Shown here in pieces: positions 1,156 through 42,413 of a stretch of DNA of 64,000 bases (position 1 is the stretch's first letter; each line of letters opens with the position of its first letter). Under the pieces are notes generated by a model, which saw only the letters and a program-made list of their open reading frames with translations, was not told the origin of the DNA and made no database searches. Made by a program: the position numbers and the translations under genes. Source of the stretch: Geminocystis sp. NIES-3709 (GTDB lineage Bacteria; Cyanobacteriota; Cyanobacteriia; Cyanobacteriales; Cyanobacteriaceae); contig NZ_AP014821.1 in assembly GCF_001548115.1 (NCBI RefSeq), positions 1 to 64,000 of the forward strand, read 5' to 3'.

Positions 1156-2211
1156 TCATCTTTTTTTTATGGGAGAAACTAATTGAAAGGCTTGGGTTAC
1201 TGCCTCCCACAATAATTGTGGATGTTCTTCTATTTGATTATTTGTTGACATTTCTTCTAGTCTTTGTAAGGTATCAGCAATGATTTTTCTGCCTTTGCTA
1301 CCATAGGCAACTCCAGAAATTTTAGAAGGAGTTAAGTTAAGTTTGTTTAATTTTTCGATCGTATATTCATTCGTACCTCCAGCTAATTGGATAAAGCCGG
1401 GTAAATTTGTCTGTTTCATTTTTTGGGCATATTTAATCGTTAAATGAGTAGTTCCACTACCTATGTCGCCACTCATAGGTCGTCCGTCAGTTTGCCATAT
1501 TAGGGGAATATTAACGGGATGAATATATTGATAAATCTCAGTTAAATATTCGGTAACGGTATCGGTATAGGGGCAACTGATGGCGATTAATTGCAATTGT
1601 TGAAGACGTGGTTTTACCATATCCCAAACTTGGATAAAATTTTGTAGATGTCCTTGTTTCGTATGAATTTCAATAGCATTAATGGGTAATGTATCTAACC
1701 ATTGTAAAACTTCTTTGGTGCTGATAATTCTTGATTCAGTGTGAATAATATTAATAGGACAAATGGGCAAACATCTTCCACAACCATAGCATAGTTCTTC
1801 TACTATCCCTTGATGTTGATTCACAATTGGTATTGTGCGATCGTCAAATTTTATCGCTTCGGCAGGACAAATTTTTTCACAAGGTCGAGGACAATCGATC
1901 GAGCAAAGGTTAGTATTAAAATAGGCTTTACGAAAATGAGGATCTTCACCATCGTTGATACTAACCATCAGTAATGGTCTAATGTGGGGATTATATCCCA
2001 AATCGATCGCCTGTTGACGGTAATTTTGAGCGATTTTAATGCCTTCTAAGGCGCTATGGATAACGGCTTTATCAGGGGCAACATCAAGACAGTCAGCACC
2101 CGCTAAGGTATAAATAAGGGCAAGGTTACGAATGGAGGGTAAATGTTGATAACTTGCACCGCAAATCAGCTTAAACCATCTACCCTGTTTTAAAGATTCT
2201 AAAGGTAACAA
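1156..2211 (-). CDS. ldpA: LdpA, iron-sulfur protein of circadian light input
   Basis: A 351-residue protein matching cyanobacterial LdpA (light-dependent period), which in Synechococcus modulates circadian period in response to redox state. The N-terminus (RWFKLICGASYQHLPSIRNL, then LAGADCLDVAPD) is the family hallmark. Two ferredoxin-like clusters are visible: C103, C107, C111, C115 and C141, C144, C147, C151, enough for two Fe-S centres. The start appears to be TTG at 2211, because no ATG precedes the conserved N-terminal block and a stop lies a short way upstream. It follows the VOC-domain gene on the same strand by 54 bp and may be cotranscribed with it. Confidence 0.9.
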   Translation of the reverse strand: MLPLESLKQGRWFKLICGASYQHLPSIRNLALIYTLAGADCLDVAPDKAVIHSALEGIKIAQNYRQQAIDLGYNPHIRPLLMVSINDGEDPHFRKAYFNTNLCSIDCPRPCEKICPAEAIKFDDRTIPIVNQHQGIVEELCYGCGRCLPICPINIIHTESRIISTKEVLQWLDTLPINAIEIHTKQGHLQNFIQVWDMVKPRLQQLQLIAISCPYTDTVTEYLTEIYQYIHPVNIPLIWQTDGRPMSGDIGSGTTHLTIKYAQKMKQTNLPGFIQLAGGTNEYTIEKLNKLNLTPSKISGVAYGSKGRKIIADTLQRLEEMSTNNQIEEHPQLLWEAVTQAFQLVSPIKKR

Positions 2212-40639: not shown

Positions 40640-41191
40640 TTATCTGTCTTTTTTTCTATTTTTATCCCACGTTTTTCTCATTTCTTTATACCATTTTTTA
40701 ACTCTTAAATCTAAGGAAAATCCCCGTTTGGTTTGAATAATCATCGTACCACTAACTCGATCGTGAAAAGCTTGATTATATTCATCATCAGTGAAAGCGG
40801 TAAAACCGTCAATCATCAAAGGTGTACAAAATAAAACCATTAACAAAAAATCTGCAAAATTAACCTTTAACCCGATCATCGTCAAAAATGCGACAACGGC
40901 AATAATACCCTCTCTTTTTGCAAGAGAAAGAAGCAGAGGAAGACGATTAAAACGGACATCGGTAATTTTTAAATCCATTGCCCAACGTCCTAAACTTTGT
41001 CCTTTATTTTTATCCACCACAATTACCCGTAAAATTAACCATAGCAAAGAAAAAACGATAAATTCTAAGAAAATGTTAGTCACAAGGGAAGAAATAACCC
41101 AAACTACCACAAAATCAATTAAAAAAGCATAAGCACGGCGATCAAAGGGTGCTTTCGGCGATCGACGAAAAAGAGTTTCTTCGCTATACAT
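40640..41191 (-). CDS. RDD-family membrane protein
   Basis: A 183-residue protein with about four hydrophobic segments. The RDD arginine-aspartate pattern is in FDRRAYAFLIDFVVVW, and the second half has KNKGQSLGRWAMDLKI and the closing DEYNQAFHDRVSGTMII. RDD proteins have been linked to ion antiport in other bacteria, but the function here is open. A plus-strand promoter lies 20 bp upstream, so it is divergent from the small basic ORF unit. Confidence 0.85.
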   Translation of the reverse strand: MYSEETLFRRSPKAPFDRRAYAFLIDFVVVWVISSLVTNIFLEFIVFSLLWLILRVIVVDKNKGQSLGRWAMDLKITDVRFNRLPLLLSLAKREGIIAVVAFLTMIGLKVNFADFLLMVLFCTPLMIDGFTAFTDDEYNQAFHDRVSGTMIIQTKRGFSLDLRVKKWYKEMRKTWDKNRKKDR

Positions 41192-41210: not shown

Positions 41211-41240
41211 TTGTCAAAATTCAGGGTTATTTGTTATTAT
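41211..41240 (+). promoter_or_regulatory. Sigma-70-type promoter of the small basic ORF
   Basis: TTGTCA (41211-41216) and TATTAT (41235-41240) with an 18-bp spacer. The predicted start is near 41247, just ahead of the ribosome site AGGAG (41257-41261) and ATG 41274. Confidence 0.6.
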
Positions 41241-41273
41241 AGTTGTTAAGAGTATCAGGAGCAGTATGAAATC

Positions 41274-41543
41274 ATGCCACGATTAAAACGTTGGGAATCT
41301 CCGAGACGAGAAGGACGCAATGATAAAGGAAAAGGAGGCACGGCGAAGAAAAAACAATGGCAAAAACGCCTCAAAATGTTAAAAAATAAACTCAAAAATA
41401 CCAAGGAAGGGGAAGTTAAATACTTCTCTTTTTTTATGTTTATTAATTGTTTAGATAATGTAAAAAAACCTGAGAGAGCTATAAAATTTATGAGTGAAAA
41501 TGGAGATTCGCTCTTAGCCTTTTTTCAATTAAAGAATAAGTAA
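41274..41543 (+). CDS. Small basic ORF with an intrinsic terminator inside the reading frame
   Basis: An 89-codon frame. The first 45 residues are strikingly basic: MPRLKRWESPRREGR, then NDKGKGGTAKKKQWQKR, then a lysine-rich helix. It has its own promoter and an AGGAG 12 bp before the ATG. An intrinsic terminator (41409-41435) overlaps codons 46-54, so a terminated mRNA would carry no stop codon. The C-terminal 20 codons lie in a dispersed repeat (copy B). I recognise no family. The non-stop layout and KGKG stretch recall ribosome-rescue factors (ArfA/BrfA); this is a hypothesis. It may instead be an sRNA. Confidence 0.4.
   Translation: MPRLKRWESPRREGRNDKGKGGTAKKKQWQKRLKMLKNKLKNTKEGEVKYFSFFMFINCLDNVKKPERAIKFMSENGDSLLAFFQLKNK
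41409..41435 (+). terminator. Intrinsic terminator within the small basic ORF
   Basis: GGGGAAGT (41409-41416), loop TAAAT, ACTTCTCT (41422-41429) pair over 8 positions including two G-U pairs, followed by seven T. It ends a transcript of about 190 nt from the promoter at 41211-41240. Confidence 0.7.
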
Positions 41544-41632
41544 TCAATTACTAATAATGTTGACGAGAAATTTAACTTAACAATGGCTGATAGCTACCCT
41601 TTCGACAATATTTTTTTCACCGAATTTAGGTT
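41467..41632 (+). repeat. Dispersed intergenic element, copy B
   Basis: About 166 bp matching copy A (14388-14556) along its full length, from ACCTGA and GCTATAAAATTTATG to CTACCCTTTCGACAATATTT and a final AGGTTAA. It begins 32 bp after a terminator. The stop codon of the small basic ORF lies inside it. Confidence 0.8.
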
Positions 41633-41723: not shown

Positions 41724-42413
41724 CTAATTAACAACTTTACCGATGACGATGACACAAGGAGATAAAGAAATATTTACAGTTTTTTCCACAATATTTTTTA
41801 ATGTACCTTTCCATTGTATTTGTTTTGGATTACCACCATTTTTAATAATGGCAATAGGAAAATCACTCGATCGACCATATTTTTGTAATTTTTGAGTGAT
41901 AACAGAAAGATTTTTACCTCCCATGAGGATAACTAAAGTATCAACTTGACTCAAAATTGACCAATTAAGTATATTTGGATCGTGACCTGTAATAATAGTT
42001 AAACAACGACTATTATCCTTTTCCGTTAACATAATATTAGCTAAAAAAGGAACAGCAAGAGCGGAAGAAATACCGGGTATAAGCTCAACATCAATGTTAA
42101 TTTTCCTTAAAACTGCCAATTCTGGATTAATGCGCCCAAAAATTGCAGGATCTCCACATTTAAGACGAATAACCGCATTATATTCTTGGGCATATTGTAC
42201 TAACAAATGATTAATACTTGTTTGAGAAGTGCTTATTTCACCCCCTCTTTTCCCGACACAGATTTTAATACATTCAGAAGAGGCAATCTCTAAAATTTCT
42301 TTATCGACTAAGGCATCATAGATAATTACTTCTGCCTGAGATATAATTTTATGGGCTTTAACTGTAAGATAGTCAATTCCCCCAATTCCAGCACCAATAA
42401 AATAAACTGTCAT
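41724..42413 (-). CDS. cobA: Uroporphyrinogen-III C-methyltransferase
   Basis: A 229-residue SUMT that methylates uroporphyrinogen III at C2 and C7 to precorrin-2, the branch to siroheme and cobalamin. It has the family's N-terminal glycine motif as IGAGIGGIDYLTVKA, slightly changed from the usual GPGD form. It also has ADVLVYDxL-like AEVIIYDALVD, CVGKRGG, VIRLKCGDPAIFGR and VELIPGISSAL. It could supply siroheme for the sulfite reductase in this window. It follows the epimerase-like gene by 24 bp. Confidence 0.88.
   Translation of the reverse strand: MTVYFIGAGIGGIDYLTVKAHKIISQAEVIIYDALVDKEILEIASSECIKICVGKRGGEISTSQTSINHLLVQYAQEYNAVIRLKCGDPAIFGRINPELAVLRKINIDVELIPGISSALAVPFLANIMLTEKDNSRCLTIITGHDPNILNWSILSQVDTLVILMGGKNLSVITQKLQKYGRSSDFPIAIIKNGGNPKQIQWKGTLKNIVEKTVNISLSPCVIVIGKVVN

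Follow-up and report, generated by a model that had tools for sequence, protein, structure and literature searches.

An open reading frame of 89 codons in the window (the whole 64,000-nt stretch of DNA that was analysed) encloses an intrinsic transcription terminator ahead of its own stop codon (Table 1), which raises the question of whether this gene is read from mRNAs lacking a stop codon, and of what its product would then do. The original prediction recognised in this arrangement the control design of the ribosome-rescue factors ArfA and BrfA, and the individual elements that it listed were all recovered, with the promoter-like TTGTCA-18-TATTAT, the AGGAG and the ATG found by scan and in the sequence, KGKGG present in the translation at residues 18-22, and a terminator with an 8-bp stem and seven T at codons 46-54, where the frame is still open, confirmed by both scan and fold. 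The hairpin (41409-41429) has a predicted energy of -8.0 kcal/mol, and a wider fold (41403-41435) one of -12.8 kcal/mol. This was the only plus-strand terminator called by the scan between 40500 and 42500, hence none was called behind the stop codon of the ORF itself. Promoter-like sites as a class were not enriched (10 found versus 9.0 expected in shuffles), and -10-like sequences were seen by eye at about the same distance in the two same-genus loci L009 and L010. The gene is located between a divergent RDD-family gene (40640-41191, minus strand) and a convergent uroporphyrinogen-III methyltransferase gene (41724-42413, minus strand), and an Rfam scan of the window gave no match.

Table 1. 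Parts of the window gene (window coordinates) and unannotated family members in cyanophages (positions within the named locus)
Feature	Position	Strand	Basis or remark
Whole open frame, 89 codons plus TAA (41541-41543), stop 3′ of the terminator	41274..41543	+	Sequence, ORF list
Promoter-like site TTGTCA (41211-41216), 18 nt, TATTAT (41235-41240)	41211..41240	+	Consensus scan
AGGAG, ribosome-binding-site-like, 12 nt upstream of ATG 41274	41257..41261	+	Sequence
Conserved core, codons 1-41	41274..41396	+	17 invariant columns in 25 homologues; median dN/dS 0.08
KGKGG, residues 18-22	41325..41339	+	Resembles ArfA KGKGS; likeness weak by shuffle test
Linker, core to terminator	41397..41408	+	Linker and stem without in-frame stop in the 154 loci counted
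Intrinsic terminator within the open frame, codons 46-54: 8-bp hairpin 41409-41429, seven T 41429-41435	41409..41435	+	Scan, fold
Frame tail 3′ of the terminator, presumably little transcribed, not conserved as protein	41436..41543	+	Stop counts, repeat search
Small gene, Synechococcus phage S-SSM4	L216, about 1298-1423		Unannotated
Small gene, Synechococcus phage S-CREM1	L217, about 1498-1629		Unannotated
Small genes in named cyanophage genomes	L218, L219		Unannotated

The last third of the frame, directly 3′ of the terminator, belongs to a dispersed repeat (41453-41560) that matches the genome at about 40 or more sites, the majority of them covering about 41505-41555; 40 of 163 candidate places were scored, and more are likely. 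Residues 50-89 therefore give spurious matches. A match of the full 89-residue frame to Csm2 (E = 7.5e-4, below the Pfam cut-off) spanned this non-conserved tail, was lost when a 48-residue stretch was used, and was rejected.

Coding constraint that ends at the terminator

The window protein matched 26 of 40 genomes (its own included) at E <= 3.1e-8, with the first 40-63 residues covered in the others, and a profile built from 25 homologues found family members in 92 of the 386 phylum genomes, representing 55 of 142 genera. A second profile which included phage versions again found 92 genomes. The ORF is thus conserved among relatives, where a lack of conservation had been named as evidence against the original prediction. 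In named genome contigs 384 relatives were found, and among the 80 kept all came from records named as cyanobacteria, including Fischerella thermalis PCC 7521 and Pseudanabaena biceps PCC 7429. The 25 homologues share 17 invariant columns (LK.WESPR..GRN.KG..G.A...Q..K....L), and the core is under purifying selection, with a median dN/dS of 0.08 over 666 pairs and mean column identities of 82% at first, 91% at second and 59% at third codon positions. The conserved columns and the low dN/dS identify this as a protein gene. That the locus instead specifies a small regulatory RNA and no protein is extremely improbable. A short transcript bounded by a promoter-like site and a terminator of its own would suit such an RNA, but the dN/dS of about 0.08 and the codon-position identities contradict it, and in most phage copies the protein is retained and closed by a normal stop codon. 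No convincing family assignment for the window protein came from Pfam, NCBIfam or PHROGs, and no model in Pfam or NCBIfam covers the family of the first ~41 residues. In one homologue (locus L120, genome G133) the LK.WESPR start typical of the family is missing and the match to the profile begins at position 13; this copy may have a damaged 5′ end.

When translated up to the terminator, the predicted non-stop product has 50-91 codons (median 63 aa, about 54 residues in the window) and a net charge of +9 to +20 (median +13), in agreement with the small and basic product that had been proposed. Structure prediction (mean pLDDT 75.5) gave a C-terminal helix at residues 23-46 and a doubtful helix at 11-18; the predicted basic helix 23-46 follows the KGKGG segment, and mean pLDDT reaches 93 in residues 31-40.

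The position of the terminator relative to the stop codon was assessed in 163 unique loci, obtained from 185 by leaving out 22 that were identical to another in the first 200 nt; this set is also without 15 loci derived from repeats, weak matches or ArfB (L002-L008, L034-L037 and L121-L124) and without second fetches of the same places (L046, L048, L055 and L060). The first called terminator (<= -7 kcal/mol) ended before the stop codon in 151 of the 163, in three its T run touches the TAA (L078, L090 and L147), and in one the stop precedes the terminator (L112). The eight loci with no call comprise one at a contig end (L017), one with an ordinary TAG stop and another ORF soon after (L032), one without a visible hairpin with T run (L161), and five (L106, L109, L129, L133 and L192) with a hairpin in frame by eye and a broken or short T run. 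Counted by genome in the phylum sample, the terminator precedes the stop in 85/92 genomes and 50/55 genera, with the remaining seven genomes divided into two overlaps, three without a call, one contig end and one with the terminator behind the stop. Homologues with a normal stop and no earlier terminator, which had been named as counting against the original prediction, do exist, mostly in phages (24/29 loci); among the 163 loci the cellular cases are limited to L032 and L112, with no called hairpin in L161.

As control we used 322 ORFs of at least 100 codons from the same loci which do not overlap the gene. At a threshold of <= -12 kcal/mol a terminator inside the frame was called in 141/163 homologue loci versus 0/322 neighbouring ORFs (12 behind the stop, 310 none), and at <= -9 kcal/mol in 150/163 versus 4/322 (15 behind the stop, 303 none), the four representing 4/19 of the control ORFs with any call; the search spans compared differ in length, being the last 150 nt of the ORF plus 150 nt beyond for the controls and nt 95-480 from the start for the gene. 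At its default of <= -7 kcal/mol the caller did not call Escherichia coli arfA, and of nine other E. coli genes three had a hairpin called behind the stop and one, zntR, had a call inside the frame (-12.6); the caller is therefore not adjusted to the known example and makes some false calls. The hairpins have 135 different sequences in 155 loci, indicating that the non-stop layout is kept while the DNA diverges.

Counts of in-frame stop codons, made in 154 loci (without L112 and the eight loci lacking a terminator call), place the end of the coding constraint at the terminator. Between codon 41 and the stem plus four bases, frame 0 contained 0 stops in 3261 codons, with 36/3222 and 272/3171 in the other frames; over the next 40 codons downstream of the T run, frame 0 contained 408/6160 (6.6%), with 5.4 and 6.3% in the other frames. 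The loci are related by descent and the counts are hence not independent tests, the spread over 50 genera being the better guide. Coding constraint runs to the terminator and is lost right behind it. Terminators leak, and the median distance from the T run to the stop codon is 17 codons, such that an ordinary small basic gene with a terminator overlapping its 3′ end by chance could still yield a normal protein from read-through mRNA. We consider this very unlikely, as the layout is kept in 50/55 genera, no in-frame stop was found from the core to the terminator with stops at background rate after it, the tail in the window is a repeat, and another terminator (<= -9 kcal/mol) follows within 200 nt behind the stop in only 18/150 loci. 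The conserved ORF, the terminator ahead of the stop and the unconstrained sequence behind it support the proposed ArfA/BrfA-type control design.

Known rescue factors and a possible mode of action

The window genome encodes tmRNA (tag ANNIVPFARKAAPVAA) and SmpB, and profile searches gave no ArfA or ArfB match in it, which fits the tmRNA-control setting that was predicted. The ArfA model PF03889 matched nothing in the window genome (E <= 10) and none of the 25 homologues, and PF10685 (KGG), which we take to be the motif of the broader ArfT-like set of PMC6514570, had no match in the window genome. Across the sample ArfB was found in 118/386 genomes at E <= 1e-20, of which 117 were above the curated cut-off; both genes were present in 42 of the 386 genomes, the gene only in 50 and ArfB only in 76. 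A strict either-or relation between the two was rejected overall, since 42/92 gene-positive genomes also have ArfB, one of them (G082) as a broken fragment below the cut-off. At finer scale, none of the 56 ArfB-positive genomes of family f37, whose small genomes are probably Prochlorococcus and marine Synechococcus, carry the gene, and genus g12 includes one genome with the gene and without ArfB (G021), two with ArfB and without the gene (G110 and G123) and one with neither (G106). For the cyanobacterial/Melainabacteria group, Table 1 of PMC11633108 lists arfA in 0/162, arfB in 90/162 and rqcH in 161/162, which makes RQC a further possible backup.

The closest parallels in layout are BrfA and ArfA. 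In the sections of PMC6881298 drawn on here, BrfA (formerly YqkK) of Bacillus subtilis is described as a small protein with an intrinsic terminator in frame, within the coding region (about 62/71 codons), which is lowered by trans-translation, accumulates only when this is impaired, then recruits RF2 to non-stop ribosomes, and is restricted to a subset of Bacillaceae; the present family has the same layout and likewise a small product with a positively charged C-terminus. A search of the family profile against solved chains at E <= 10 gave five matches, none of them a rescue factor; the BrfA complex 6SZS was presumably in the set, and BrfA was compared by description. ArfA of E. coli has a similar non-stop layout combined with an RNase III site (parts of PMC8012679 and PMC6299226), and shares with the present family the non-stop control, known here from the layout of the DNA (85/92 genomes). 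Mature ArfA is given as 52-55 residues with a conserved KGKGS in the same part of PMC6299226, close to the about 54 residues of the truncated window product, as had been noted for its size, and comparable to KGKGG here, and the aligned stretch has N.KGKG in common with ArfA. The profile comparison was weak, with an hhalign probability of 2.5% and an E of 0.019 for the one pair, and with 82 and 253 of 3000 shuffles reaching the score, and unlike in ArfA, an N-terminal release-factor-binding part was not recognisable in the family. The shared N.KGKG is thus suggestive, but homology to ArfA was not significant, with no PF03889 match and an insignificant profile comparison, and the function is therefore read from layout and composition, not from homology.

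ArfT of Francisella has 40 residues, like the phage versions, and its motif KKGGSTNKK resembles GKGGTAKKK here, these nine residues being the extent of the comparison; as far as the consulted part of PMC6299226 describes it, arfT is without a terminator or RNase III site before its stop, whereas the cellular copies here mostly have a terminator and 24/29 phage loci do not. The alternative rescue factor ArfB/YaeJ, found in cyanobacteria, has an RF1-like catalytic domain (same part of PMC6299226), for which the present protein is far too small, and neither PF00472 nor NF006718 (140 positions) matched the window protein (89 codons) or the 25 homologues. The accompanying claim that no factor of this design had been described in cyanobacteria agrees with our search of the open-access literature, in which none was found (subscription papers and preprints were outside its scope).

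We consider it likely that the product is a backup factor for ribosome rescue, controlled through tmRNA, from a new family which would act as ArfA and BrfA do although no homology to either was detected; the layout indicates tmRNA-linked control and does not by itself show that the product acts in rescue. Counting against this reading are the lack of an overall anti-correlation with ArfB, the presence of rqcH as another possible backup in nearly all surveyed cyanobacteria, the few cellular copies that end at ordinary stops and the weakness of the likeness to ArfA, limited to KGKG. In the proposed sequence of events, RNA polymerase would end at the in-frame terminator and produce an mRNA without a stop codon, and a ribosome reaching the 3′ end of this mRNA would stall there, its peptide remaining tRNA-bound. 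Functional tmRNA-SmpB would tag this peptide for destruction, and untagged peptide would be set free where tmRNA-SmpB is missing or overloaded. Through the basic KGKGG segment and the C-terminal helix, likewise basic, the free peptide may then occupy the A site and the vacant mRNA channel of stalled ribosomes and cause peptide release, with RF2 or RF1 as the factor that it probably recruits; more of the peptide itself would be freed in this way. A review expects that there are more rescue factors, possibly not findable by sequence similarity (as stated in part of PMC8012679), and the present layout, in which selection keeps the terminator before the stop, points to such a factor. If this is correct, it would provide a backup for trans-translation in cyanobacteria without ArfA or ArfB and another case of non-stop control, with the stop-terminated phage versions as natural comparison, and the prediction can be tested directly in culturable strains.

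Genomic neighbourhood and phage copies

The gene is located 3′ of tRNA-Leu(CAA) in 41 of the 159 loci with enough upstream sequence (L018, L022-L024 and 37 others), with the same tRNA and direction in different families and a distance of <= 70 nt in 34 of the 40 printed, and the 5′ end of the mRNA might there be made by tRNA processing. The window copy has its own promoter-like site, unlike these tRNA-linked copies. In the phages S-SSM4 and S-SSM6b the gene lies just before tRNA-Val, and in the viral locus L209 just after tRNA-Cys. In L032 (genome G038), where the cellular copy ends at an ordinary stop and lacks a terminator, an ORF which we take to be rimM-like begins within about 20 nt; given this stop and neighbour, the gene may there have become part of a ribosome-related operon and escaped tmRNA control.

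Such neighbours are also compatible with a gene that is a true gauge of tmRNA activity with another type of product, a ribosome- or RNA-binding protein acting in hibernation, assembly or modulation of translation and needed only when trans-translation is overloaded. The basic, helical character predicted for the protein, the position of the gene behind tRNA-Leu(CAA) in 41 of 159 loci, the rimM-like ORF directly behind the L032 copy and the lack of sequence homology to any proven rescue factor are in line with this reading. We regard it as unlikely, because ArfA and BrfA, which have the same layout, are rescue factors (in the portions of PMC6881298, PMC6299226 and PMC8012679 available to us), and because the KGKGG segment resembles the ArfA and ArfT motifs (PMC6299226, in part).

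Relatives of the core were detected in IMG/VR contigs and in named cyanophages, namely as ORF039 of Acaryochloris phage A-HIS1, annotated as similar to host gene AM1_2888, as PSSM7_028 of Prochlorococcus phage P-SSM7, and as unannotated genes in Synechococcus phages S-SSM4, S-CREM1 and DSL-LC02 and Cyanophage S-SSM6b. The named-phage matches are weak by E-value (about 0.002 to 7, self-match apart), and their frames read [LI]K[SN]HE[ST]PR..GRN; with phage-type queries all eight records in each of two match lists were cyanophages. Matches to an Enterococcus phage and to tRNA-Leu stretches (E 5-8 with one phage-type query) were taken as noise, and when one cellular peptide served as query, no named phage or plasmid was matched.

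Ordinary stops after 40-52 codons were found in 24 of 29 phage loci, with a terminator behind the stop in seven of these and none called in 17. The IMG/VR loci L220, L222-L225 and L239 are the same places as L208-L213 and were counted once, and the 29 include identical proteins (S-SSM4 and S-SSM6b; L233 and L234). As the stop in most phage copies follows directly on the core, the core by itself is probably the functional portion. In the other five loci (L226, L228, L230, L232 and L237, mutually similar) the terminator precedes the stop, which suggests that non-stop control was kept or regained in some phages, and the presence of both types of copy makes the non-stop layout a separable trait. 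The cyanophage versions with a stop codon would be produced regardless of tmRNA activity, which might keep ribosomes free during infection. On balance we favour the broader view that this is a new tmRNA-gauged rescue family, widespread in cyanobacteria, so far found only there and in cyanophages, and of an origin independent of ArfA, BrfA and ArfT, which cyanophages would have acquired and mostly freed from tmRNA control via an ordinary stop, keeping host ribosomes recyclable irrespective of how trans-translation stands.

The neighbouring ORFs were phage-like in L209 and L210, the only IMG/VR loci in which they were looked at. The 119-kb viral contig IMGVR_UViG_3300003878_000001 carries two different copies of the gene (L208 and L209) about 7 kb apart, with many tRNA genes around them.
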